A stretch of 30,893 nucleotides of DNA from Draconibacterium sp. (GTDB lineage Bacteria; Bacteroidota; Bacteroidia; Bacteroidales; Prolixibacteraceae). The translations under genes were made by a program, and so were the position numbers. Position 1 is the first letter of the stretch. Each line of letters opens with the position of its first letter. The notes under the pieces are model-generated. The model was not told the origin of the DNA, searched no databases, and worked only from the letters and a program-made list of their open reading frames with translations. This document shows positions 1-30,793 of this stretch, in pieces. The stretch covers positions 1 to 30,893 of the forward strand of contig WGCT01000275.1 in NCBI GenBank assembly GCA_015493625.1, in the 5' to 3' direction.

Positions 1-446
1 CACTTTATAAAGGGGTTTTAACCGTTCGGGTAAAACATCGTGTGCCGGTTGTTCGGGTAATGTCCGACAACGGAAGTTACTATTTAGACGAGTACGCAAA
101 TAAAATTCCCATCTCGCAAAACTATACGGCCAATGTTTTGGTTGCCACCGGTTTTTTTACCGAAAAATATGCGAAATCGGAATTATTGCCGTTTGTTTTA
201 TATCTGAAAAACAATGAGTTCTGGAATGCTCAAATCGAACAGATTTACGTGGCAAAAGATGGCGATGTGCTTTTAACACCACTAGTTGGCGAACATATAA
301 TTGAGTTTGGTACCCTTAAAAATTATCGGAAAAAACTTCAGAAAATGAAGGCATTTTACGAACAGGTTCTGGCAAACAATAACTGGAATAAATACAAACG
401 AATTAGTCTGAAATATAAAAATCAGGTAGTTGCAAAAAAGAGATAA
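1..446 (+). CDS. ftsQ: Cell division protein FtsQ, C-terminal part (cut by window edge)
   Basis: The reading frame is open to the first base (codons in phase from position 3), so this is the end of a gene that begins outside the window; a GTG at 42 is internal, not the start. About 147 residues are visible. They match the C-terminal beta domain of FtsQ/DivIB, including the stretch around VPVVRVMSDNGSYYLDE, which resembles the family's segment where the protein refers to its own bound substrate-like strand, and a later VGEHIIEFGTLKNYRKKL segment typical of the family end. FtsQ is a single-pass membrane protein that links early and late divisome proteins in the periplasm. It lies three bases upstream of ftsA, in the usual ftsQ-ftsA-ftsZ order, which is the strongest support because FtsQ sequences are poorly conserved. 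Confidence 0.88.
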   Translation, partial: LYKGVLTVRVKHRVPVVRVMSDNGSYYLDEYANKIPISQNYTANVLVATGFFTEKYAKSELLPFVLYLKNNEFWNAQIEQIYVAKDGDVLLTPLVGEHIIEFGTLKNYRKKLQKMKAFYEQVLANNNWNKYKRISLKYKNQVVAKKR

Positions 447-449
447 ATT

Positions 450-1736
450 ATGGTTTCAAAAAGTAATCTTTCGGTTGTTATCGATATTGGCACTTCAAAA
501 ATAGCAGCGCTTGCCGGGTTTAAAAACGAGCAAGGTAAAATTGAAGTTATTGCTTATGCAAAAGGATTTTCAAAAGGAGTTAAACGCGGTGTGATTTACA
601 ACATCGAGGAGGCGGCAAACTCTATTGAAAATTGTTTGTCGGAGTTGGAAGAACAACTCGACGAGAAGATTCAGACAGCTGCCATCGCTTATGCCGGCCA
701 GCATATGAAAACCATCGATTTTCATAAATCGAGATTTACCTCCGACGATGGAGTTGTTTCGCAGTTCGATGTTGAGCATCTGTACGGCGAAGTTCAAAAA
801 ACAGAGTTCGAGCAAGACTATACGATTATTCAGGTCATTCCAACTTCGTTTGTTGTCGACGATGAAATTATTGTACAAAACCCGGTGGGTGTAACCGGCC
901 GGAAAATAGAAGCCTATTATAAACTGGTGGTAATGCCAAAACCATACATTGAAAACCTGCATCGTGTTTTCGATAAAATTGGTGTTGAAATGGGCGAGAT
1001 TACACTCTCAACACTGGCAATTGCCGAAGCTGTAATTACCGACGATGAAAAAGAGATGGGCGCCATTGTTCTCGACATGGGCGCCGGCACAACAAATATT
1101 GCTGTTTATCACGAATCGATGCTGGCACACACCGCGGTAATTCCGTTTGGTGGCAGTGTGGTTACCAAAGATATTAAAGAGGGGTGTGCCATTTTGCTGA
1201 AATGGGCAGAGCAGTTAAAAGTAAAATATGGCGGTGCACTTGGCGATTTTGCCGACGACCAGAAAGTGGTTACCATTCCTGTTCACAGCAATTTAGAGGC
1301 AAAAGAGATTTCGTTTCGTAGTCTTGCTTATATTATTCAGGCCCGGTTGGAAGAGATTATGGATAGTGTGAACCTTGAAGTGGAAAAGTCGGGAGTAGAA
1401 GAAAAACTGGGCGCCGGAGTTGTATTAACCGGTGGAACATCGAACCTCGAGCAATTTAGCTCGCTTGTAAAATACCGCACCGGAAAAGATGCAAGAATTG
1501 CAAATCTCGCCTTCAATCCGGTAGGCGATAAAAAACTGATACACGACAGTAGCTATTTTACCGCACTGGGGTTGTTGAGTTTGGTTGTAAACAAATCGGT
1601 AAATCCGATAAATAAAAAGAGAAAAAAATCGAAAACCCGAAAAGACGGATTAAAATTTATTCCTCTTTTGGGGAGAGCTGTTCAGGGGGCACTCGATTTT
1701 TTTGAAGACGAAAATGATGATTTGGCAATGAATTAA
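450..1736 (+). CDS. ftsA: Cell division protein FtsA (actin-like membrane anchor of FtsZ)
   Basis: A 428-residue protein of the actin/Hsp70 ATPase superfamily. The phosphate-1 motif DIGTSKIAAL is at residues 12-21, phosphate-2 DMGAGTTN at about 209-216 and the adenosine motif LTGGTS at 326-331. FtsA polymerises on the inner membrane, tethers FtsZ and recruits later divisome proteins. The C-terminus has a lysine/arginine-rich stretch (about 388-402) followed by a hydrophobic segment, FIPLLGRAVQGALDFF, that could act as the amphipathic membrane-targeting helix, and then an acidic tail. The gene starts three bases after ftsQ and ends 11 bases before the first ftsZ, so the genes are almost certainly co-transcribed. 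In this organism FtsA has two different FtsZ proteins as possible partners. Only the downstream one carries the canonical C-terminal peptide that FtsA binds in other bacteria. Confidence 0.97.
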   Translation: MVSKSNLSVVIDIGTSKIAALAGFKNEQGKIEVIAYAKGFSKGVKRGVIYNIEEAANSIENCLSELEEQLDEKIQTAAIAYAGQHMKTIDFHKSRFTSDDGVVSQFDVEHLYGEVQKTEFEQDYTIIQVIPTSFVVDDEIIVQNPVGVTGRKIEAYYKLVVMPKPYIENLHRVFDKIGVEMGEITLSTLAIAEAVITDDEKEMGAIVLDMGAGTTNIAVYHESMLAHTAVIPFGGSVVTKDIKEGCAILLKWAEQLKVKYGGALGDFADDQKVVTIPVHSNLEAKEISFRSLAYIIQARLEEIMDSVNLEVEKSGVEEKLGAGVVLTGGTSNLEQFSSLVKYRTGKDARIANLAFNPVGDKKLIHDSSYFTALGLLSLVVNKSVNPINKKRKKSKTRKDGLKFIPLLGRAVQGALDFFEDENDDLAMN

Positions 1737-1747
1737 AAACAACAGAT

Positions 1748-3067
1748 ATGTCCGAGGAATTAGTAAACTTTCAGCTTCCCAAAAGCGCATCATCAATAAT
1801 AAAAGTTGTGGGCGTGGGAGGCGGTGGTTGTAATGCCGTAAACCACATGTACGAAGAGGGAATAAGAGGAGTTGATTATCTTATTTGTAACACCGATGCG
1901 CAGGCGCTCGAATCGAGCCCGGTGCCGGTAAAAATTCAAATGGGAGTAACATTAACCGAAGGAAGAGGAGCAGGCAATAAACCCGAAATGGGCGAAGAAT
2001 CGGCACGCGAAAATTACGAAGATATTAAAGCCGTTTTGCAGGATAATACAAAAATGCTGTTTATTACTGCCGGAATGGGTGGAGGTACCGGAACCGGTGC
2101 CGCTCCTGTAATTGCAAGTCTGGCTCGCGAGTTAGGTATTCTTACCATTGCTGTTGTTACTGTTCCGTCGCCAGCCGAAGGGAAAAAACGGTACGGACAG
2201 GCAATGGAGGGAATTAAAAAACTTGGCGAATTTGTCGATAGTATGTTGGTTATTAGCAACCAGCGACTGCACAATATTTATGGCGATTTACCGGCTCGCG
2301 AAGCTTTTAAAATGGCCGATAACATTGTTGCAACTGCCGTGAAAGGTGTTGCCGAAATTATTACCGTACACGGCAATGTAAATATCGACTACACCGATGT
2401 GCATACGGTAATGCACAACAGCAAAGTGTTTATTATGGGCACCGGATTCTCCTCGGGCGAAGGACGCGCAATGGATGCCGTAAACAAAGCACTCGAGTCG
2501 CCGCTGCTGGATAGCAACGATATTTTCGGAACGAAAAATATCCTTCTGAACATTATCTCGGGGAAAGAGGAAATTCGTATTGGCGAGATTGGCGAAATTA
2601 TAGAAACATTGCAGGAGAAAGCCGGACAGGAAGCCGATATTATTTGGGGAAATGGCTACGATGAATCCTTGGGAGATGAAGTAAGTGTTACCATTCTGGC
2701 CACCGGATTTGTTACCAACCCGAATCAGATTCTTCAACCTAAAAAAGAGCCGGAAGTTTTTGAACTCGACAAGGAATTAGCGCCCGAAGAAGTTGTAGAT
2801 AATACAGGGGAGGAAGTTCGGATTGAACCTCTTTTTGAACAGGAAGAAGATGAAAATGAGTTTGAACCGGTCGACTCGGGATTCTTTAAAGTTAAAGAGA
2901 AAGGGAAAAAGGAGAAACCGGCCGAATCGAGAAAAGAGCGACGTAAGAAAAAACGAAGAGAGAAAACCGATGAGCCTGTGGCCGAATCGAATATAGACAG
3001 TTGGTTTTATAAAAATTTTGGAAAATTATTTAACGAAGGCGACAGTGACGATGAGCTATTAGACTAA
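1748..3067 (+). CDS. ftsZ: Divergent FtsZ paralogue (first of two tandem copies)
   Basis: A 439-residue tubulin-family GTPase. Seen: the N-terminal glycine loop GVGGGGCNAVNHM (22-34), the tubulin signature GGGTGTG (111-117), nucleotide-contact residues in EGKKR (144-148) and D191, and the catalytic T7 loop N212-I-D214-Y-T-D217. GTP binding and hydrolysis therefore look intact. Odd features compared with the next gene and the family: the loop normally PFxxEG reads PSPAEG (140-145); INNER reads ISNQR; and the C-terminus lacks an IPA(Y/F)xRR-type partner-binding peptide. Instead, after a charged linker with a strongly basic run near 395-407, it ends in SWFYKNFGKLF plus an acidic tail. Over the GTPase domain it is clearly more similar to its neighbour than not (well over half of positions identical by eye). 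It lies 11 bases after ftsA and 24 before the second ftsZ. It probably forms or modulates the Z-ring together with the second copy; its separate role is unknown. Confidence 0.93.
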   Translation: MSEELVNFQLPKSASSIIKVVGVGGGGCNAVNHMYEEGIRGVDYLICNTDAQALESSPVPVKIQMGVTLTEGRGAGNKPEMGEESARENYEDIKAVLQDNTKMLFITAGMGGGTGTGAAPVIASLARELGILTIAVVTVPSPAEGKKRYGQAMEGIKKLGEFVDSMLVISNQRLHNIYGDLPAREAFKMADNIVATAVKGVAEIITVHGNVNIDYTDVHTVMHNSKVFIMGTGFSSGEGRAMDAVNKALESPLLDSNDIFGTKNILLNIISGKEEIRIGEIGEIIETLQEKAGQEADIIWGNGYDESLGDEVSVTILATGFVTNPNQILQPKKEPEVFELDKELAPEEVVDNTGEEVRIEPLFEQEEDENEFEPVDSGFFKVKEKGKKEKPAESRKERRKKKRREKTDEPVAESNIDSWFYKNFGKLFNEGDSDDELLD

Positions 3068-3091
3068 TTGAAACCTTAAACAGAAGAGAAA

Positions 3092-4420
3092 ATGAGTGAA
3101 GAATTGGCAAACTTTTCATTTCAGGAGAAACCCGGAGCTGAGATAAAAGTAATAGGAGTTGGAGGCGGTGGCGGCAATGCCGTAAATCATATGTACGAAC
3201 AGGGAATTCGCGACGTTGATTTTGTAATTTGTAATACCGATGCACAGGCAATGGAATCGAGCCCGGTTCAGGTGCGTGTACAATTGGGAGCATCGTTAAC
3301 CGAAGGACGCGGAGCAGGAAATAAACCGCAAATTGGCGAAAAAGCAGCCCTCGAAAATATTGAAGATGTAAAAGCGGCACTATCGGAAAATACAAAAATG
3401 GTTTTTATTACCGCAGGTATGGGCGGTGGTACCGGAACGGGAGGAGCACCCATAATTGCAAAAGCGTGCAAAGAGGCCGGATATTTAACGGTTGGCATTG
3501 TAACAATTCCTTTTAGAAACGAGGGGCGCCGAAGAGTAAAACAGGCTGCCGAAGGAATTGCAGAACTCGAAAAATATGTCGATTCGTTGTTAATAATCAA
3601 TAACGAGCGAATTCGCGAGATGTACGGCGATTTTGCCATCTCGAAAGCATTTGCTATGGCCGACAATATTTTGGCTACTGCTGCAAAAGGAATTGCCGAA
3701 ATTATTACCGTTCCCGGCTATATTAATGTCGATTTTGCCGACGTGGAAACCGTTATGCGAAACAGCGGCCTGGCCGTTATGGGAGCAGGAGTTGCCGATA
3801 GCGAAAACCGTGCAATTGAGGCCATTAAAAATGCATTAAATTCACCTCTGCTTAATAATAACGACATTCGAGGAGCAAAAGATATTCTTATTAATATTAC
3901 ATCGGGAAACAACGAAGTAACAATGGCCGAAATCGACGAGATTATTGAATACATTCAAAACCGGGCGGTTTACGATGCCAATATTATTTGGGGAAACGGC
4001 AAAGAGGAGTCGTTGAACAACGCACTTTCAGTTACCGTAATTGCAACAAATCTTAGCGACGGGAAGGTTGTACAACCCACCCAACCCGATGAGGAGAAAA
4101 AGGACGAACCCCTAATTAAAGGCGACGGTTTTGTTGAATTCGACATTGAAAAAGAGAGAGAAAAAGAGGAAAACGATTTCCAGTCGCTCTATCCGTCAAC
4201 GACCAAATCACGGGCAGCATCAGCAGGAGTTCCCCTAACGCGCGACTATTCGAATTTAAGCGATGAGGATGTTGACGAACTGGAGAAAATTCCCGCCTAC
4301 AAGCGGCGACAAATAAAAATGAACGGGTCGCAAATCAAAAAAAATGTATCGAAACTCTCGGTTACAAAAGACAATAAAATTTCAGATAAAAACTCGTACC
4401 TGCACGACCAGGTCGATTAA
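3092..4420 (+). CDS. ftsZ: Cell division protein FtsZ, canonical copy (second of two)
   Basis: A 442-residue tubulin homologue that forms the cytokinetic ring. It has GVGGGGGNAVNHM near residues 22-34, the signature GGGTGTG, an unaltered PFRNEGRRR loop, INNER, and the standard T7 loop NVDFADVETVM. The variable linker begins near residue 325. The C-terminal region has the conserved partner-binding peptide ELEKIPAYKRRQI (IPAYKRRQI at 400-408), which corresponds to the IPAFLRKQ-type peptide that binds FtsA and other partners, and it ends NSYLHDQVD, an ending I associate with Bacteroidota FtsZ. This copy is therefore the best candidate for the main Z-ring protein. It follows the divergent ftsZ by 24 bases and precedes the GatB/YqeY gene by 11, all in one likely operon. 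Confidence 0.97.
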   Translation: MSEELANFSFQEKPGAEIKVIGVGGGGGNAVNHMYEQGIRDVDFVICNTDAQAMESSPVQVRVQLGASLTEGRGAGNKPQIGEKAALENIEDVKAALSENTKMVFITAGMGGGTGTGGAPIIAKACKEAGYLTVGIVTIPFRNEGRRRVKQAAEGIAELEKYVDSLLIINNERIREMYGDFAISKAFAMADNILATAAKGIAEIITVPGYINVDFADVETVMRNSGLAVMGAGVADSENRAIEAIKNALNSPLLNNNDIRGAKDILINITSGNNEVTMAEIDEIIEYIQNRAVYDANIIWGNGKEESLNNALSVTVIATNLSDGKVVQPTQPDEEKKDEPLIKGDGFVEFDIEKEREKEENDFQSLYPSTTKSRAASAGVPLTRDYSNLSDEDVDELEKIPAYKRRQIKMNGSQIKKNVSKLSVTKDNKISDKNSYLHDQVD

Positions 4421-4431
4421 AAATAACTATT

Positions 4432-4881
4432 ATGGCACTATTCGAACAAATAAACAACGACATTAAAACGGCAATGAAAGCTCGCGAAAAAGAGCGACTT
4501 CAAGTACTTCGAAACATTAAAAAAGTGATGCTCGAAGCCAAAACCGCAAAAGGAGCAACAGCCGAATTGTCCGACGAAGAGGTAATTAAAATTATCTCGA
4601 AACTCGCTAAACAGGGTAGCGATTCGGCAAAAATTTATAAAGAGCAAAACCGCGACGATTTATTTGAACAAGAGATGGCACAGGTTGCAGTTCTCGAAGA
4701 GTATCTTCCCGAAAAAATGTCGGATGAAGAGTTAACTGCCGAAGTAAAAGCAATTATAGACCAGGTGGGGGCAACCACAATGAAAGATATGGGAAAAGTG
4801 ATGGGAATTGCATCGAAAAAACTCGCCGGGAAAGCCGATGGAAAAGATATTTCGGTAAAGGTTAGAGCGTTGTTGCAGTAA
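4432..4881 (+). CDS. GatB/YqeY domain protein
   Basis: A 149-residue protein matching the YqeY family, which is homologous to the C-terminal tRNA-contacting domain of the amidotransferase subunit GatB. The N-terminus (QINNDIKTAMKAREKERLQVLR) and the second half with EEYLPEKMSDEEL and TMKDMGKVMG are characteristic; length is normal for the family. The stand-alone protein's function is not settled; a link to tRNA is inferred from the GatB domain. It is the last gene of the ftsQ-ftsA-ftsZ-ftsZ run, a position I recall as usual for this gene in Bacteroidota. It ends 62 bases from the convergent DUF2141 gene. Confidence 0.93.
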   Translation: MALFEQINNDIKTAMKAREKERLQVLRNIKKVMLEAKTAKGATAELSDEEVIKIISKLAKQGSDSAKIYKEQNRDDLFEQEMAQVAVLEEYLPEKMSDEELTAEVKAIIDQVGATTMKDMGKVMGIASKKLAGKADGKDISVKVRALLQ

Positions 4882-5641: not shown

Positions 5642-6541
5642 TTAACAATACGCTTTAAAACTCCTGTTCCACTCGCGCAGAGTAAATTCGGTACTAATTG
5701 CCACTAACTCGGTGGGGCGGAAATCGTTTTCCATTTCAACAATTTTAATCGAGTCGAAGGTGCATTGAACGGCGGCGGTTTTCCCTTTGGTTAAATTTAC
5801 AAAGCCTTTAATACGGTATGCTTTGGGTGCCCATTCGTTCAAAAATTGTTGCAATGCCTTGCGCGACATTTTTCGCCCGTTTTTAATTACCATCGAATTT
5901 ATTTCGGGACTGGCCATGGTTTTAACATCGCTGAAATAGAATTTATTAATGGCCCTGTTTCCCAATTCAAAATCAATATCGCAATAAGTTGTCTCTTTAA
6001 TTTCGGCAAACGGATTTGCTTTTCGCACCTCATTTTTTATCGTTTCCATTTCATTCCCAACCAAATCTGTTTTATTAACAACAATAACATCGGCCATTCG
6101 TATTTGGTGCGAAACACGCTGTTTCATCGGGCCCACTTTGGCAAAATTTTGAGCGTCGATAATACACCAGTTCGAAGCAAGGTAAATTTTCTCTGCCAGT
6201 CGCCCCGCCGAAATCACCTCCGAAATCGATGTCGTGTCAGAGAGTCCCGACGCTTCAATAATAATATTGTCAGGCCGATATTCGTCAATAAATTTTTCGA
6301 GCGAATGAACAAAATCGCCCAGCAAGCAGACGCAAAAAACCGAGCCGTTGTTAATCTCCAGCAGATTAAAATCTTTCCCCGACTTTTGCAATTCCACTCC
6401 ATCAATGTTTGCCGGGGCAAATTCGTTCTGAATAATCCCGATTTTCTTTTCACCTGAATATTGGTCAATAATACGTTTTAGGAACGTGGTTTTGCCACTT
6501 CCCAAAAAACCCGAAATAATATGGAATGGTATTTTTTGCAT
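5642..6541 (-). CDS. CobW/COG0523-type GTPase (metal chaperone-like)
   Basis: A 299-residue G3E-family P-loop GTPase. Start ATG at 6541 is chosen because the protein then begins MQKIPFHIISGFLGSGKTTF, the family's usual N-terminus; the open frame runs 24 codons further but those codons lie in a REP-like repeat. Walker A GFLGSGKT is at 11-18, the EASG motif follows near 115, and the base-specificity motif NKTD follows IVV. The metal-binding loop normally GCxCC reads GSVFCVCLLG, so it keeps a CxC pair (C70, C72) but the third cysteine is leucine. A CobW_C domain occupies the last ~90 residues. COG0523 proteins deliver or insert metals such as Zn or Co. The neighbouring corrinoid methyltransferase genes suggest a role in maturing a zinc or cobalt enzyme here; that is an inference. 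Confidence 0.9.
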   Translation of the reverse strand: MQKIPFHIISGFLGSGKTTFLKRIIDQYSGEKKIGIIQNEFAPANIDGVELQKSGKDFNLLEINNGSVFCVCLLGDFVHSLEKFIDEYRPDNIIIEASGLSDTTSISEVISAGRLAEKIYLASNWCIIDAQNFAKVGPMKQRVSHQIRMADVIVVNKTDLVGNEMETIKNEVRKANPFAEIKETTYCDIDFELGNRAINKFYFSDVKTMASPEINSMVIKNGRKMSRKALQQFLNEWAPKAYRIKGFVNLTKGKTAAVQCTFDSIKIVEMENDFRPTELVAISTEFTLREWNRSFKAYC

Positions 6542-6562
6542 TTTGTTTTTTTGATAATAATA

Positions 6563-6776
6563 GTCATTCCCGCGAAGGCAGGAATCCCCCTCCAAATAGA
6601 AAGGAATTCCCACTTTTGTGGGAATGACCGATTTAGTTTTTTAGACCCTGAAACAAGTTCAGGGTGGCGCTTTTTAATAGCATTCGTTAAAAAAATACCG
6701 TCTTGCTAAACTTGTTTCAGCATCTGTCTATTATTTTTTTATTAGTCCCATTTTTGGGTGCATTTTGGGAATGACA
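6563..6776. repeat. REP/BIME-like inverted repeat mosaic
   Basis: The gap between the CobW gene and the homocysteine methyltransferase gene is built of nested inverted repeats. GTCATTCC (6563-6570) pairs with GGAATGAC (6621-6628). Inside, ATTCCCGC/GCAGGAAT (6566-6585) forms an 8-bp stem with one mismatch, and ATTCCCAC-TTTT-GTGGGAAT (6606-6625) is a perfect 8-bp stem. A third hairpin, ACCCTGAA-N5-TTCAGGGT, lies at 6645-6665. CTGAAACAAGTT (6648-6659) is repeated inverted as AACTTGTTTCAG at 6709-6720. A further GGGAATGAC copy ends at 6776. This is the pattern of repetitive extragenic palindromes; they may act as mRNA 3' end stabilisers or terminators. Confidence 0.75.
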
Positions 6777-6792
6777 ATTATAAATATACTTA

Positions 6793-7674
6793 TTACTTTT
6801 TGTCCACCTCTTCGCGAACCCGGCAAATATGGTCGGGCGTGGTGCCGCAGCAACCACCAATAATGTTTGCCCCGGCGTCAATAATTTTGGGAACCAAATT
6901 GGCCATTTCATCGGGTGTTTCCGGGAACACTGTTTTTCCATCGTCATAAATTGGCATTCCGGCGTTGGCATGAACGAGTACCGGAATATCTTTGTTAGCT
7001 TTACGAATCTCTTTTACAATGCCAATCATATCTTCAATTCCGTTTCCGCAGTTGGCGCCAATCAGTTCGGCTCCGGCATCAATCAAGGTATTTACCATAT
7101 CGGTTGGCGCAATTCCCATCATCGAGCGGTAGTCGCCGTTTACCGTTTTTTCAAATGTCATGGTACAAAAAACTTCGCAGTTGGTATTTTCTTTTGCCGC
7201 ACGAATTGCCAGTCGTGCCTCATCGAGGTCGGTCATGGTTTCAATCATAATGGCATCAACACCGCCGGCTTCCAAACCCTGCACTTGTGTTTTAAATGCT
7301 TCGTACAACTCCTCTTCGGTTACGTCGCCCATCATCAGAATTTTTCCGGTGGGACCAACCGAACCGAGTACAAATTTATCGCCGGCAGCTTTTCTGCTGA
7401 TTTCTGCCGCCGCTTTGTTCAGCTCAAAAACTTTGTCGGCCAAACCATATTTTTCAACTTTAAAAATAGTACCACCAAAACTGTTGGTTTCCACCATGTC
7501 GGCACCTGCATCGATATAACTTTTGGCAATATCAAACACATCGTCGGGGTGCGAGAGGTTCCACTCTTCGGGGCACTCGCCGGGTTGCATTCCTTTTTGT
7601 TGTAAAAATGTTCCCCATGCTCCGTCGGAAACCATTGTTTTTCCTTGTTTTATTTGGTCGATTATTTTTCCCAT
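6793..7674 (-). CDS. Stand-alone homocysteine S-methyltransferase domain protein
   Basis: A 293-residue TIM-barrel protein of the homocysteine S-methyltransferase family, similar to the N-terminal homocysteine-binding module of MetH but without the pterin, cobalamin and activation modules. Seen: MVSDGAWGTFLQ at 14-25, VETNSFGG at 61-68, and the three zinc-ligand cysteines, C209 in GANCGNG and C275-C276 in GGCCGTTP. Zinc activates the homocysteine thiol for methylation. It lies 114 bases after the URO-D/thioredoxin gene and has its own -7 box (7714-7721 on the minus strand). With the corrinoid protein encoded nearby, it could take a methyl group from methyl-cobalamin to make methionine, as in a split MetH system. 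The methyl source is not visible. It could alternatively use S-methylmethionine; the genomic context argues for the corrinoid route. Confidence 0.9.
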   Translation of the reverse strand: MGKIIDQIKQGKTMVSDGAWGTFLQQKGMQPGECPEEWNLSHPDDVFDIAKSYIDAGADMVETNSFGGTIFKVEKYGLADKVFELNKAAAEISRKAAGDKFVLGSVGPTGKILMMGDVTEEELYEAFKTQVQGLEAGGVDAIMIETMTDLDEARLAIRAAKENTNCEVFCTMTFEKTVNGDYRSMMGIAPTDMVNTLIDAGAELIGANCGNGIEDMIGIVKEIRKANKDIPVLVHANAGMPIYDDGKTVFPETPDEMANLVPKIIDAGANIIGGCCGTTPDHICRVREEVDKK

Positions 7675-7713
7675 CAGTTTTGAAATATTAAGGGCTATGA
7701 GCCCAATTTTTTA

Positions 7714-7748
7714 CAAATATAAAACCCCGGGTTGAAACCCGGAGCAAA
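7714..7748 (-). promoter_or_regulatory. Putative promoter of the homocysteine methyltransferase gene, with palindrome in the spacer
   Basis: On the minus strand a TTTG (7748-7745) is followed after 23 bases by TATATTTG (7721-7714), a match to the Bacteroidota -33/-7 pattern TTTG...TAnnTTTG. The spacer holds CCGGGTT-GA-AACCCGG (7727-7742), a 7-bp palindrome that could be an operator or a small dispersed repeat. A second small hairpin, GGGCT-ATG-AGCCC, lies at 7692-7704 in the leader. Confidence 0.5.
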
Positions 7749-7788
7749 ATATATTAGAATTTTTAATTAAATATTCTTTGTTGCCAGC

Positions 7789-9408
7789 TTACAGCTCTTT
7801 AATCCACTCCTTCACCACTTCGAGTGATGGTATTTCGCTCTCCGACTTTAATTTATATTTTACCGAAACAACTGCCGGCCCGTTTACAACGCCAAACGAT
7901 GCCATTTGTGCTTTGTCCGATATTATTTTTACTTCAACATCTTTTCCGAGTTCGGTGGTTGCACGTTCTATAATCTTTTTTAATTCGTTGTTCTCATTTT
8001 CGTTTTCACCCAGAATAAGCAATTCGCTGCGTTTCGACTTTATTTTCAGCTTTAGCTTTTTGTTGATGCGTTTTTGGATGGCAGCAATCAACTCGCTTTT
8101 AGGCGGAATCTGCGAAACAAAAGCAATCTTCCCGTCGATACAGATGGTTGGTATGTTTTTTACCATCAGCGACGACATAAAAGTAACGGCATCCATTTTT
8201 TTGATGGCATGTTCGCGCCACTCAACAATTCCTTCGAACTGCGGAGCCACCTGTTTTACCGCTTCAACCATATATTGGCACGGTGCACACGACTCCGAAT
8301 TCAGCGTAATAATATCGACAATTACCTTGTCTGACTGGCCGTAATCTTTCATATTTAACACCTCAATTGTGCTCTCTTTTTTATCTAAAGTGCGTATAAC
8401 TTCCTGTTTGTAATCGTCGTGAACAATCTCGGTTACAGCCTTTAAGTTTTCGGGTGGCGTATCCATCGGCAGATCGCAACCGGGAGCCAGAATAAATCCG
8501 GTTTTGCCTCCCAAATCCAAACATTCAACGGCCTCTTCGCGGCAATCGTCTTCGTTTCCCATTAGCAGAACAACGGTTAATTTCATATTTCCGCCAAAAC
8601 TAATTCCTTTTTTCAGGGCAATGTCTTTAACAAAATCAATTGGAATATTTTCGTCAATAGAAACGTTATCGGGTTTGCAATTGCACATCGCTTCAATGTT
8701 TTGTTGCGCGTGACCGCAAACAAAAAACGAACTCAATTTATCTGCATTCCGAACCGTGTCGAAAATTTCGGAAACATAGGGTGTTACAAACGTTTCAAAA
8801 GTCATCGGGTCAATTTGGCTGGTCATTGGGTCAACCACCGCAATAATATCGCAACCGGCATCGATAAGATACTTTGCCATTTTATTTCCCACTTTTGTAC
8901 AAAACTCCATCACCTCCGTTATCTCGTCGGGTGATTCGAAAAGCTTGGTGAAGATATCGGTTCCCAACAGATGAAGAGCCAATGTGAATGGACCGGTAAT
9001 CAGCCCGTACAAAGCAATATCGGGATATTTTGCGCGCAACTCTTTTGCCGCATTTACTGCAACAGGAATTCGTCCGTCGGTAATTTCGGGCACGTTTAAA
9101 TCGGAAAGTTTTACGCCTTCTTCGAGCGGGTGCGAAACAACAGCCGGTGGATTGTGAGGAGCCCATTGCAATTGGCAGCCTAAAATCTCGGCTTCAATTT
9201 GCAGGTCGAAAACCACAGGAACTCCATCGGGGTTGTACTCTTCGATGGCTTTGCTGACTCCGGCAACCACTTTGTCGGCCGATTTTAAATACGCTTCGGC
9301 ATCAACTCCGGTTATAAAACCTCCGTGCACACCAACAAACGGTACCCACGGAACTCGTTCAACTGGGTTAAGTGCAAATGCTTTTTTTATTAATTCTAAT
9401 CCTTTCAT
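7789..9408 (-). CDS. URO-D/MtaA-type methyltransferase fused to two thioredoxin-like domains
   Basis: A 539-residue protein. Residues 1 to about 345 form a uroporphyrinogen-decarboxylase-fold methyltransferase of the MtaA/CmuA type (VERVPWVPF near 16-24, TGPFTLALHLLG 138-149, SFFVCGHAQQN 227-237, LAPGCDLP 308-314). Zinc-site candidates are C231, H233 and C311; the HxC motif typical of MtaA reads FVC here. Residues about 361-450 are a thioredoxin-like domain with SESCAPCQYM (CxxC at C374-C377) and a later NIPTICIDG segment with the cis-proline. Residues about 461-539 look like a second thioredoxin-like domain of the small redox-protein type (SFGVVNGPAVV, then IPSLEVVKEWI), but its expected active-site turn is GENENEN with no cysteine. 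Such enzymes move methyl groups to or from corrinoid proteins, and a corrinoid protein is encoded just upstream. The attached redox domain may keep zinc-site thiols or the corrinoid reduced. The methyl substrate is unknown. Confidence 0.87.
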   Translation of the reverse strand: MKGLELIKKAFALNPVERVPWVPFVGVHGGFITGVDAEAYLKSADKVVAGVSKAIEEYNPDGVPVVFDLQIEAEILGCQLQWAPHNPPAVVSHPLEEGVKLSDLNVPEITDGRIPVAVNAAKELRAKYPDIALYGLITGPFTLALHLLGTDIFTKLFESPDEITEVMEFCTKVGNKMAKYLIDAGCDIIAVVDPMTSQIDPMTFETFVTPYVSEIFDTVRNADKLSSFFVCGHAQQNIEAMCNCKPDNVSIDENIPIDFVKDIALKKGISFGGNMKLTVVLLMGNEDDCREEAVECLDLGGKTGFILAPGCDLPMDTPPENLKAVTEIVHDDYKQEVIRTLDKKESTIEVLNMKDYGQSDKVIVDIITLNSESCAPCQYMVEAVKQVAPQFEGIVEWREHAIKKMDAVTFMSSLMVKNIPTICIDGKIAFVSQIPPKSELIAAIQKRINKKLKLKIKSKRSELLILGENENENNELKKIIERATTELGKDVEVKIISDKAQMASFGVVNGPAVVSVKYKLKSESEIPSLEVVKEWIKEL

Positions 9409-9922
9409 ATTTTTGAGTTTTTAGTAGTATGTTTTTTAGTATTCCTTTTTGTTTTGCTCATTCAGGTTTCTATGATGTTCGTTTTCCAATTTTTTTCCTT
9501 CTTCCGGTAACACATTAAAGCAACTTCTTGTCATTTCTCAACGTAAAAGAAATCTTCCTCTTTGCAATGAGATTCTTCACTATGTTCAGAATTACGCCAA
9601 TAATAAGCAGTGTGCCATCACCTTTTTTAAGCCCAAAGTCTCAAAAAAACAAAACCTCGTATAATTTCAAATCTTCAATTTCAGGCAAACCAATCCTGTT
9701 TCAAGAAAAATGGTCTTCTCAATCAACATCATTTCAACTAAACTCTGTTTTGTATTTTGCAGAGATGCTTATTGAAGCGGTATCTAAATTGAATTTATAA
9801 TGTTACTTTTTAAATCTCTGTTTCGCCCCTCTGTCAACCGTCAAAGAACAGATGATATGAACCCTCGAGACAAAGCTTCAAGGAATTTTAATGACAATTT
9901 CAAGGCAAAATATAATTAGATA
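9409..9922. other. 514-base gap inside the methyl-transfer locus
   Basis: No convincing gene, RNA or terminator was recognised between the corrinoid gene and the URO-D/thioredoxin gene. A 90-codon plus-strand frame (9528-9800) has a low-complexity, unconvincing product. A 32-codon minus-strand frame (9436-9534, ATG at 9534) ends 27 bases before the start of the downstream gene and encodes a very charged peptide; it could be a leader peptide or chance. No B12-box-like element (GCCACTG) was found on the minus strand. Confidence 0.5.
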
Positions 9923-10591
9923 TTAATCTACCTGCGAGTTTAAGAATTCAACCAAGCCTTGTGGGTCGGAAGAGTAAGCGTCGGCACCAATTTTCTGACA
10001 ATAATCTTCGGTTACCGGAGCACCTCCAACAGCTACTTTTGCTCCCGGAATCTCTTCTTTAATGGCTTTTGTAATTTTCTCCATATTAACCATTGTTGTG
10101 GTTAACAAAGCCGACAACCCAACGAAAGCATTTTCGTGCTCTTTCATTGCAGCAACAAACTGTTCTGCTTTTACATCGGTTCCAAGATCGACCACTTTCC
10201 AGCCGTTTCCTTCAACCATCATCGAAACCAAATTCTTACCTATGTCGTGTAAGTCGCCTTCAACGGTGCCAATAATAAAAGTTCCTTTTTGTACCACTTC
10301 GCCCGATTGGAAAAATGGTTTTAAATGAATCATTGCAGTATTCATAGCTTTTGCCGACATTAAAACCTGCGGAACAAAAACTTTATTTTCACGAAATTTA
10401 ATGCCCACTTTTTCCATCCCAATCATCAGTCCTTTCGAAAGGATATCCTGTGCATTTATTCCTTCATCAATTGCCTGCTTTGTTAATTCGTCGGCACCAT
10501 CTTGTCCCTTCATTTGCGGAGGATATGGAGCTGCTTTGTTTATTTTTCCAAACTCAATACAATCTGCAATTTTTAATAATAATTCACTCAT
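9923..10591 (-). CDS. Corrinoid (cobalamin-binding) methyltransferase subunit
   Basis: A 222-residue protein of the MtaC/MtbC/MttC-type corrinoid family, homologous to the cobalamin module of MetH. An N-terminal helical cap domain (about 1-95, with VPQVLMSAKAMNTAM at 73-87) precedes a Rossmann-like B12 domain. The base-off ligand motif DLHDIGKNLV starts at 113, with H115 as the expected lower cobalt ligand; GLSALLTTTM (158-167) and GGAPV (189-193) complete the B12 tail-binding set. The protein carries a methyl group on cobalt between two methyltransferases. The two encoded just downstream on the same strand, the URO-D-type enzyme and the homocysteine methyltransferase, are the likely partners. 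No reductive activase gene (RamA/RACo-like) is present in the window. The gene is divergent from an AraC-type regulator, which suggests substrate-dependent control. Confidence 0.95.
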   Translation of the reverse strand: MSELLLKIADCIEFGKINKAAPYPPQMKGQDGADELTKQAIDEGINAQDILSKGLMIGMEKVGIKFRENKVFVPQVLMSAKAMNTAMIHLKPFFQSGEVVQKGTFIIGTVEGDLHDIGKNLVSMMVEGNGWKVVDLGTDVKAEQFVAAMKEHENAFVGLSALLTTTMVNMEKITKAIKEEIPGAKVAVGGAPVTEDYCQKIGADAYSSDPQGLVEFLNSQVD

Positions 10592-10619
10592 AGCAACTTT
10601 TATTTGTTTTATTCCGTGA

Positions 10620-10627
10620 CAAATGTA
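10620..10627 (-). promoter_or_regulatory. Putative -7 promoter box of the corrinoid protein gene
   Basis: The minus strand reads TACATTTG, an exact TAnnTTTG match, 28 bases before the ATG at 10591. No clear -33 TTTG is present, which would fit an activator-dependent promoter. Confidence 0.5.
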
Positions 10628-10651
10628 TTTCTACTTCCTTGGGTAAAAAAT

Positions 10652-10685
10652 AGTAATTTTTCAGAAAAAGATGGAAAATATTACT
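10652..10685. promoter_or_regulatory. Candidate operator between corrinoid gene and araC-type gene
   Basis: Inverted repeat AGTAAT (10652-10657) / ATTACT (10680-10685), extended inward by TTTTC and GAAAA with one offset base. It lies centrally in the 132-base divergent intergenic region, 25 bases upstream of the corrinoid gene's -7 box, a plausible site for the adjacent regulator. Confidence 0.35.
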
Positions 10686-10723
10686 TTATTTGTTTTTCAA
10701 TTCATGTTTTTACACAATAAAGT

Positions 10724-11584
10724 ATGATTTCTGAGATCAGGTATTTTCGTATTCCAACTCATCTGTTAGACGAGCAGAAGAGAAACCCGGTTACCCGGAA
10801 TTTGTTTCTTACCGAAATTGCAGAGATTGAGGTAGTTCAGGGAACCATTTGGAGTGAAAGTTCGAATAACGATAATTTTTTGCTTGCCTACTGTACAAAG
10901 GGGAGTGGATTTGTGCAGATTCTCGATGAGCAAATTCCTGTTTCGGACGACCAGTTTTTTATTATTCCCAAAAACGAAGCGTTTAAGTTTTATTCGGTTT
11001 TAGATGTAAATACCCGGTTTTTAGTTGCCCGCTTTAACGGGAAAAATGCCCGCCAGTTTGGTAAAGAGTTTTTTGTTGTTAGAAGTTTAATTCCTTCGGT
11101 AAATAATATGGTTGCCAACCGCGAGATGTTGTTCGACGAGATTTTTACCAACCTCCTGAAAGGATTTCACGACGAAAATCTGGAATATGTAAATTTATGT
11201 TTTGGGCATCTTCTTGGCACCTTTGTCTATGCAAATAAAACCAGCGACGACATTGCCGACGAGTCGAGCCCGGTTGTACGGCGTACAATAAATTATTTAA
11301 ATAAAAGTATTGGCAAGCGTCTTACTCTCAGTGCACTTGCAGCCGAAATTGGCTACTCGCCAACTTATCTTTCAACGCTGTTTAAAAAGGAAACCAACTA
11401 TTCGCCAATTAGCTATTTTTCGCATCTGAAGATTGTAAAAGCGTGTGAGTTATTAGATTTTACAACACTGAAAATAAAGGAGATTTCGTTTCAGCTGGGG
11501 TACACCGACCCTTATTATTTTACCAAAGACTTTACAAAAAAGATGGGGCTGTCGCCGCGAAATTACCGAAACCGCGTTAGTTAG
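10724..11584 (+). CDS. AraC-family transcriptional regulator
   Basis: A 286-residue regulator. The N-terminal ~165 residues form an AraC-type cupin effector domain (GSGFVQILDEQIPVSDDQFFIIP near 65-87), and the C-terminal ~100 residues contain the paired helix-turn-helix DNA-binding domain: LTLSALAAEIGYSPTYLSTLFKKE for the first and LKIKEISFQLGYTDPYYFTKDFTKKMGLSPRNYR for the second, the latter being the family signature. It is transcribed away from the corrinoid protein gene, 132 bases apart. The natural inference is that it senses the methylated substrate or a product and activates the methyl-transfer genes on the minus strand. The effector cannot be read from the sequence. Confidence 0.93.
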   Translation: MISEIRYFRIPTHLLDEQKRNPVTRNLFLTEIAEIEVVQGTIWSESSNNDNFLLAYCTKGSGFVQILDEQIPVSDDQFFIIPKNEAFKFYSVLDVNTRFLVARFNGKNARQFGKEFFVVRSLIPSVNNMVANREMLFDEIFTNLLKGFHDENLEYVNLCFGHLLGTFVYANKTSDDIADESSPVVRRTINYLNKSIGKRLTLSALAAEIGYSPTYLSTLFKKETNYSPISYFSHLKIVKACELLDFTTLKIKEISFQLGYTDPYYFTKDFTKKMGLSPRNYRNRVS

Positions 11585-28374: not shown

Positions 28375-28764
28375 ATGGCAAAACAAAACTCAAGACCTTA
28401 TGGAGACGGAACAGGCTCGTCGATAAATATTATAAGCGAAGGAACTGTAATTAAAGGCGATATAGTTGCCAACGGCGACATTAGAATTGACGGTGAACTC
28501 ACCGGGAATCTATCGGCAAAAGGTAGGCTTGTTGTGGGGCCAAAAGGAAAAATTGAAGGTAAAATTACCTGTAACAACGTTGAAGTTTCGGGGTTTATAA
28601 AAGGAAAAGTTACTGCCAGCGAGTTGTTAAATATGAAATCAACATCGAAAATAGAGGGCGACATTATTACCGGCAAATTATCGGTTGAACCCGGATCGAC
28701 CTTTACCGGAACCTGTGCTATGCGGGGCACACATCCAATAAATGAAACAGCAGAAGAAAAATAA
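28375..28764 (+). CDS. Bactofilin (polymer-forming cytoskeletal protein)
   Basis: A 129-residue bactofilin. The core (about 16-115) is a right-handed beta-helix with six- to seven-residue repeats, seen as IKGDIVANGDIRIDGELTGN and VVGPKGKIEGKITCNNVEV, flanked by short flexible ends (N-terminal MAKQNSRPYGDGTGSS, C-terminal NETAEEK). Bactofilins polymerise without nucleotides into filaments, often at the membrane, and help shape cells. It overlaps the next gene by 23 bases, which couples it to the ATP synthase accessory gene. Confidence 0.95.
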   Translation: MAKQNSRPYGDGTGSSINIISEGTVIKGDIVANGDIRIDGELTGNLSAKGRLVVGPKGKIEGKITCNNVEVSGFIKGKVTASELLNMKSTSKIEGDIITGKLSVEPGSTFTGTCAMRGTHPINETAEEK

Positions 28765-29674: not shown

Positions 29675-30793
29675 ATGCATAAGTTTTCGAAAGCAACATA
29701 TATATTTATTGTACTTTTTTTAGCAGGAGTTACTCCTCTGCTTGCTCAGCACGACAACAAAGCAAAGCACGAACAGAAAGCAGACAAACACGAAGAGCAA
29801 GCTTTTGATGCAGGAAAGTTTGTTGTGCATCACGTATCCGATGCATACGATTATCACATTGTTTCGTTTGGCAACACAAACATAACCATCCCGCTACCGG
29901 TTATTCTCTATTCAAAACATCCCGAATTACACGAAGGAAAAAGTTTTCATGTTTTCATGTCAACAAAATTTCGTCATGAACATGCCGATTATAAAGGATT
30001 CCGAATCTCGGAACAAAAAGATTACGAAGGAAAAATTGTAGAGCTAAATGCAGAAGGACAGGAAATTGGTAGACCTTTTGACCTGTCTATCACAAAAACT
30101 GTTGCCGGAATACTTGTTTCGATTATATTAATTTTCTCCGTTCTTTTTTCGGTTAAACATATGATGAAAAAGAATAAAGGGAAATCACCAAAAGGAATTC
30201 AGAATATTGTGGAACCCATTGTTCTTTTTATTCGCGACGAGATTGCAAAGCCAACAATAGGAGACAAAAAATACGAAAAGTTTATGCCTTTTTTGCTAAC
30301 GCTTTTCTTTTTCATTTTAGCAAACGATATTTTAGGACTCATTCCGTTCCCGCCATTTTCGGCAAATGTAACCGGAAACATTACGGTAACCATGGTTTTG
30401 GCACTGTTTACGTTTGTAATTACAACCATTAACGGCAATAAACATTATTGGAAAGAGATATACAACCCCGATGTACCCTGGTGGTTAAAATACCCTTTCC
30501 CGCTAATGCCGATTGTTGAGTTAACCGGAGTGATTACAAAACCGTTTGTATTAATGGTGCGGCTGTTTGCAAATATGTTGGCAGGACATATGATTGTTAC
30601 TGTTTTTGTAAGTTTAATATTTGTTTTTGCCCATTTAATGGGGCCGGCGGCCGGATATGCAATAAGTCCGGTATCGGTAGGGTTTTCGGTGTTTATTTTA
30701 TTACTCGACATTTTAGTGTCGTTTATACAAGCTTATGTTTTTACATTGTTGTCGGCACTCTATTTTGGAATGGCGACAGCAGACCATCATTAA
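29675..30793 (+). CDS. atpB: F-type ATP synthase subunit a
   Basis: A 372-residue form of subunit a, much longer than the roughly 270-residue enterobacterial protein. An N-terminal signal-like segment (MHKFSKATYIFIVLFLAGVTPLLAQ) is followed by a histidine- and lysine-rich periplasmic domain (about 26-140, HDNKAKHEQKADKHEE), a long form I associate with Bacteroidota AtpB. The membrane part starts near 141. The proton-channel arginine is R296 in FVLMVRLFANMLAGH, with LTGVITKPF just before it. Further helices end with YVFTLLSALYF. Subunit a forms the two half-channels facing the c-ring. It is followed by atpE, 24 bases on. Confidence 0.96.
   Translation: MHKFSKATYIFIVLFLAGVTPLLAQHDNKAKHEQKADKHEEQAFDAGKFVVHHVSDAYDYHIVSFGNTNITIPLPVILYSKHPELHEGKSFHVFMSTKFRHEHADYKGFRISEQKDYEGKIVELNAEGQEIGRPFDLSITKTVAGILVSIILIFSVLFSVKHMMKKNKGKSPKGIQNIVEPIVLFIRDEIAKPTIGDKKYEKFMPFLLTLFFFILANDILGLIPFPPFSANVTGNITVTMVLALFTFVITTINGNKHYWKEIYNPDVPWWLKYPFPLMPIVELTGVITKPFVLMVRLFANMLAGHMIVTVFVSLIFVFAHLMGPAAGYAISPVSVGFSVFILLLDILVSFIQAYVFTLLSALYFGMATADHH

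Follow-up and report, generated by a model that had tools for sequence, protein, structure and literature searches.

Two FtsZ proteins with different C-termini encoded in tandem in the dcw cluster of Prolixibacteraceae

Genes at the tandem ftsZ locus

The window analysed here is a whole stretch of 30,893 nucleotides (nt) from a Draconibacterium sp. of the Prolixibacteraceae (GenBank assembly GCA_015493625.1, contig WGCT01000275.1), in which two intact ftsZ open reading frames (ORFs) follow each other on the forward strand, at 1748..3067 (439 amino acids, aa) and at 3092..4420 (442 aa). The pair lies inside the division and cell wall (dcw) gene cluster, with ftsA (450..1736) on the 5′ side and yqeY (4432..4881) on the 3′ side, and the order of the genes and the 24-nt spacer between the two copies are as a preliminary description of this DNA had given them. 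The downstream FtsZ has a canonical C-terminal peptide (CTP), IPAYKRRQ, whereas the upstream FtsZ has no CTP and ends in an amphipathic tail that carries the near-invariant residues W419 and F428. Judged by sequence, the C-terminus, which the preliminary description missed, best suggests how the two copies differ.

Both proteins are above the cut-off of the NCBIfam ftsZ equivalog TIGR00065 (295.2 bits), with 353.5 bits for the upstream and 372.9 bits for the downstream copy. Matches to PF00091 (153.9 bits) and PF12327 (78.3 bits) also indicate FtsZ membership, as does the fold of the upstream FtsZ, whose template modelling score by target length reached 0.95 among 50 listed solved structures. 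The GGGTGTG and N-x-D-x-x-D motifs are complete in both copies, and the nucleotide-binding and T7-loop residues that were checked are kept in both. The two proteins share 56% identity over 360 residues, and therefore the tandem copies are not a recent duplication.

The genome of origin is a metagenome-assembled genome (MAG), 94% complete and in 587 contigs, with exactly two FtsZ matches (E ≤ 0.001), both from the tandem. The same ftsZ pair is found in the complete chromosome of D. orientale (L057, NZ_CP007451.1), where the dcw order is FtsW/RodA-type, glycosyltransferase-28 (MurG-type), Mur ligase, ORF at the FtsQ position, FtsA, FtsZ, FtsZ and YqeY. Homologues of the ORF at the ftsQ position adjoin the 5′ side of ftsA in those relatives whose locus extends that far. 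The name is given by position only, since neither the window fragment nor the D. orientale ORF had a Pfam or NCBIfam match; in a single-copy relative (L146), the corresponding ORF had a weak POTRA_1 match of 22.3 bits, just under the cut-off of 23.

The features of the locus are listed below. Of the 41 upstream copies, 35 are in alignment A1; those of L121 and L140 and the first copies of four loci with three ftsZ genes are not. Two further loci, L152 and L153 (families f83 and f13), were excluded from the upstream and downstream counts because their copies are very diverged.

42..446, + strand, 3′ part of the gene at the ftsQ position (ORF list; truncated by the contig start)
450..1736, + strand, ftsA (PF14450, 105.1 bits; TIGR01174, 300.4 bits, cut-off 175.85)
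1656..1733, + strand, FtsA C-terminal tail FIPLLGRAVQGALDFFEDENDDLAMN, presumed membrane anchor and standard of comparison (FtsA tails as a group have a high hydrophobic moment)
1748..3067, + strand, upstream ftsZ (family matches, AlphaFold model, structure match)
2078..2098, + strand, segment of upstream ftsZ, invariant across the 35 upstream copies of A1
2381..2398, + strand, N-x-D-x-x-D segment of upstream ftsZ (N, D and D in 121 of 121 aligned rows)
2714..2983, + strand, linker region of upstream ftsZ (block mean predicted local distance difference test score, pLDDT, 42-69 from residue 331; selection values below)
2984..3064, + strand, tail of upstream ftsZ (A1 conservation, hydrophobic moment, FtsA-tail profile, selection)
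3092..4420, + strand, downstream ftsZ (ORF list, family matches, alignment)
3422..3442, + strand, segment of downstream ftsZ (sequence and alignment, residue counts by group)
3725..3742, + strand, segment of downstream ftsZ (sequence and alignment, residue counts by group)
4289..4321, + strand, CTP of downstream ftsZ (31 of 35 downstream copies have the motif, none of the 41 upstream copies does)
4391..4417, + strand, end of downstream ftsZ after the CTP (a loose hand-made pattern is matched by 32 of 35 downstream copies, by 37 of 41 single copies and by 1 of 41 upstream ones)
4432..4881, + strand, yqeY, downstream border of the tandem (PF09424, 153.2 bits)

Distribution and conservation of the tandem

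In the Prolixibacteraceae (f1), 113 of 120 genomes, the genome of origin included, have at least two FtsZ matches. There was one match in two of the remaining genomes (in G050 the gene is at a contig start, and in G092 the downstream copy reaches a contig end) and none in five, which are 68-95% complete. The second match was confirmed as a tandem neighbour only at the loci that were fetched. The tandem was seen at 65 loci with distinct upstream proteins, some of them MAG loci whose family was inferred, for example from tree position; the nearest loci that bear names are from Draconibacterium, Maribellus, Mariniphaga and Tangfeifania. The spacer is 12-143 nt, and 24-29 nt at 38 of the 65 loci, with start codons picked by script.

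In the rest of the order, at least two FtsZ matches were found in 24 of 243 genomes, and the tandem is real in 12 of them (G131, G137, G146, G181, G195, G214, G241, G248, G286, G298, G322 and G327). These tandems span seven Bacteroidales families (f13, f19, f28, f63, f77, f83 and f96); Odoribacter was the only organism name among 120 listed protein matches of one f96 upstream copy. In the other 12 genomes, the matches are gene fragments, split genes or distant FtsZ-like ORFs at other sites. Three consecutive ftsZ genes are carried by four genomes from f28 and f63 (L136, L137, L138 and L139), in which the first two copies end in an amphipathic-looking segment and the last has a CTP or a variant form; G145 is replaced by I or V in the first copies. 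The tandem pairs of L152 (G286) and L153 (G131) are strongly diverged, with differing tails and partly long branches. Extra FtsZ-like ORFs of 374, 497 and 258 aa were observed away from the dcw ftsZ genes at L197 (G017), L198 (G106) and L199 (G192), respectively.

We also searched a wider sample of 345 genomes from the phylum, in which 52 genomes beyond the genome of origin have at least two matches. No tandem was found among the 20 of these that were inspected, where the second match was the CTP end of the same gene in 12 and fragments, a contaminated genome or unlinked homologues in eight; two FtsZ copies as a general feature of the phylum were thus not seen in this sample. As a separate observation, the three f125 genomes inspected (L192-L196; G406, G422 and G445) have two or three FtsZ homologues each, on different contigs, and the five ORFs that were read have CTP-like PAY/PAF-x-R ends, with two such peptides in four of them.

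Within the Prolixibacteraceae, the upstream copies form one clade and the downstream copies another, and each of the two clades covers 20 of the 23 genera sampled. The pooled ratio of non-synonymous to synonymous substitution rates (dN/dS) in the core is 0.014 for the upstream and 0.020 for the downstream copy, from 33 and 29 non-independent pairs of moderate synonymous divergence among 63 and 60 sequences, which indicates strong purifying selection on both. In the upstream copy the pooled value is 0.057 for the tail (last 31 residues) and 0.172 for the linker (residues 323-408). Recent duplication is ruled out by the 56% identity and by the breadth of genera in each clade, and dN/dS and the catalytic residues rule out a pseudogene for the window and for the family at large. 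The exception is the upstream FtsZ of L121 (2066-3199), which keeps the aromatic tail but whose core is degenerating (378 aa, N171G, D191N, branch length 2.0). The earlier claims that both copies keep their GTPase motifs, that neither looks like a pseudogene and that they diverged beyond a recent duplication are thus borne out, and within the family the upstream copy forms its own clade with conserved gene order, a check that the preliminary description had proposed. The proposal of a specialised paralogue is partly supported, in that orthologues exist across the family under selection far from neutral; a division of labour between a structural and a regulatory copy would go beyond these data.

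An assembly artefact or a decaying duplicate would fit a contig from so fragmented a MAG and the degenerating core in one genus, but its probability is negligible given the complete D. orientale chromosome, the 65 loci and the core dN/dS, and an artefact of one MAG is ruled out by the first two. Taken together, these results show that the tandem ftsZ pair is a real, conserved and unusual form of dual FtsZ.

The two C-termini and their proposed membrane attachment

W419 and F428 are at least 90% conserved in the 35 upstream copies, which come from several families, while the region around them is variable. The median of the maximum 11-residue hydrophobic moment in the last 35 aa was 0.652 for the upstream copies of the family (n = 26) and 0.609 for those of other families (n = 15), compared to 0.637 for FtsA (n = 73), 0.358 for downstream FtsZ (n = 35), 0.351 for single FtsZ (n = 41) and 0.484 for unrelated C-termini (n = 324). 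The family values did not differ from those of FtsA (p = 0.88) and differed from those of downstream FtsZ (p = 1.3e-8) and of unrelated C-termini (p = 1.9e-6). When FtsA tails alone (40, from genomes with a single ftsZ) were used to build a profile, its threshold of 4 bits was reached by 25 of 41 upstream tails and by none of the 35 downstream or 41 single FtsZ tails; as controls, it was reached by 4 of 325 unrelated C-termini and 18 of 25 FtsA tails from the family itself. One of the four tails of L152 and L153 reached it. As a group, the upstream tails thus resemble an FtsA-type membrane targeting sequence in both moment and profile. A hand-made tail pattern, which fits 33 of 41 upstream copies and none of the 35 downstream or 41 single ones, was written after the tails were seen and is not counted as evidence. 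A difference in linker charge, with a slightly more basic segment in upstream copies (median maximum per 20 aa of +7 upstream, +5 downstream and +2 single), was judged weak. CTP-bearing FtsZs, including that of the window (4391-4417), also have a conserved extension past the CTP that ends in N-S-Y/F-L-H-D-x-V-D or similar.

These results lead us to lean towards a Z ring built from one adaptor-tethered and one self-tethering FtsZ. The downstream FtsZ, which keeps the CTP, would be held at the membrane through an adaptor, and the upstream FtsZ would anchor itself by an amphipathic tail that resembles the membrane anchor of FtsA. Since the CTP is replaced by an FtsA-like tail in the upstream copy, cells may use two differently held FtsZs; we infer membrane binding of this tail from its sequence. 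The alternative anchor SepF was absent from 21 of 21 genomes searched, and a control search found SepF in 7 of 14.

Several observations weigh against self-tethering. The profile scores are low throughout (best upstream tail 15.3 bits): 16 of the 41 upstream tails fall short of 4 bits, a threshold that 21 of 410 shuffled versions of these tails do reach. The hydrophobic moment alone is unspecific, as YqeY C-termini have a value of 0.623 (n = 50). When each tail was ranked against its own shuffles, the top 10% included only 14 of 26 upstream tails of the family and 6 of 15 from other families (FtsA, 43 of 73). The end of the upstream tail is acidic, with a median net charge of -4 in the last 12 residues in the family, which is unusual for a membrane anchor; the FtsA tails of these genomes, by eye, also tend towards acidic ends. 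The upstream copy of L140 has no amphipathic segment at its very end. AlphaFold gave the upstream tail only a five-residue helix (420-424; block pLDDT 44-51), but the FtsA control tail (residues 403-428) had no helix and a pLDDT of 31-37, and therefore the model says little about a helix in the upstream tail.

The acidic end and the near-invariant W and F would also fit a tail that binds a protein and not lipid, and FtsZ CTPs are themselves short conserved docking peptides. We regard such a docking role as rather unlikely: the FtsA-tail profile and the FtsA-like moment point to lipid binding, and across families the non-hydrophobic positions are loose by eye, so that a specific protein site is less expected. 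Less likely still is that both copies do the same job, as a matter of dosage or condition-specific redundancy, and that the tail difference is of little consequence. Both cores are near-canonical and the family-specific signature of the upstream core is just 8 sites by the criterion used, yet almost every genome sampled from the family retains both copies, under purifying selection and in a consistent order, and the CTP is absent from the upstream copy alone.

That each family duplicated ftsZ on its own, with convergent FtsA-like upstream tails, has somewhat less than an even chance. Trees were built from chosen loci, with proteins under 340 aa left out and all rows from the phylum of the window. 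In the free careful tree (71 rows), the upstream copies were placed in several positions, and a family-own duplication was not rejected by the approximately unbiased (AU) test for the Prolixibacteraceae (p-AU 0.316) or f19 (0.104). However, a single clade of all upstream copies was likewise not rejected (p-AU 0.127; in a 113-row set, which lacked L152, L153, L178, L191 and the long upstream rows of L120 and L121, it was 0.522, and there the tree under this constraint came out 2.43 log units ahead of a quick free search), and the W and F positions are common to several families. A doubtful extension of the self-tethering reading is a natural FtsZ-mts (FtsZ with a membrane targeting sequence): an early Bacteroidales duplication of ftsZ in dcw, after which the ftsA-adjacent copy would have gained the anchor of FtsA, by capture of the neighbouring ftsA 3′ end or by close mimicry, giving a ring with two independent attachments and later three FtsZs in some lineages. 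If so, treadmilling would be set by the isoform ratio and not by the balance of separate anchor proteins.

Elsewhere in the window, 5642-11584 encodes cobW, a homocysteine S-methyltransferase, a URO-D and thioredoxin fusion, a corrinoid-binding protein and an AraC-type regulator, which suggests a corrinoid methyltransferase system. A gene for the cytoskeletal protein bactofilin (28375-28764) lies upstream of the ATP synthase A chain gene (29675-30793).

Comparison with known FtsZ systems

Two papers describe bacteria as having a single FtsZ, and among the open-licence matches listed we found no description of such an FtsZ pair or tandem for Prolixibacteraceae or other Bacteroidales. For bacteria with two ftsZ genes, a survey states that the extra copy is located away from the dcw cluster (PMC9871819); in the genomes studied here, two or three copies lie in tandem within it. 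Artificial FtsZ-YFP-mts chimeras (YFP, yellow fluorescent protein) also have a membrane targeting sequence at the FtsZ C-terminus, in one variant that of E. coli FtsA (PMC7320174). Those proteins are engineered, whereas in Bacteroidales the layout occurs naturally and next to an FtsZ with a CTP. Mycoplasma genitalium is a wall-less bacterium, unlike the host here. Its FtsZ was reported to bind the membrane directly by a motif (Dutta et al. 2025, as cited in PMC12583498).

Two paralogues are also found in Odinarchaeota, where OdinFtsZ1 tethers itself by an amphipathic helix and the C-terminal tail of OdinFtsZ2 is held by the adaptor SepF (PMC12583498). In contrast to the pair described here, that helix is N-terminal, the host is an archaeon and the adaptor is the one missing from our 21 genomes. 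In plant chloroplasts (Arabidopsis), the ring likewise has two FtsZs: FtsZ2 has retained the CTP and interacts with a membrane adaptor (FtsZ2-ARC6), and FtsZ1 has no CTP and binds the membrane via a C-terminal amphiphilic motif, RR/KLFF in angiosperms (PMC11285052, PMC12343686). The plant genes are nuclear and serve a eukaryotic organelle, and the amphiphilic end is a terminal beta-strand, where the tail described here would be a helix; the upstream copy does have the FtsZ1-like traits of a lost CTP and a C-terminal end computed to be amphiphilic. By analogy, the Bacteroidales pair may work like the plant and Odinarchaeota pairs.
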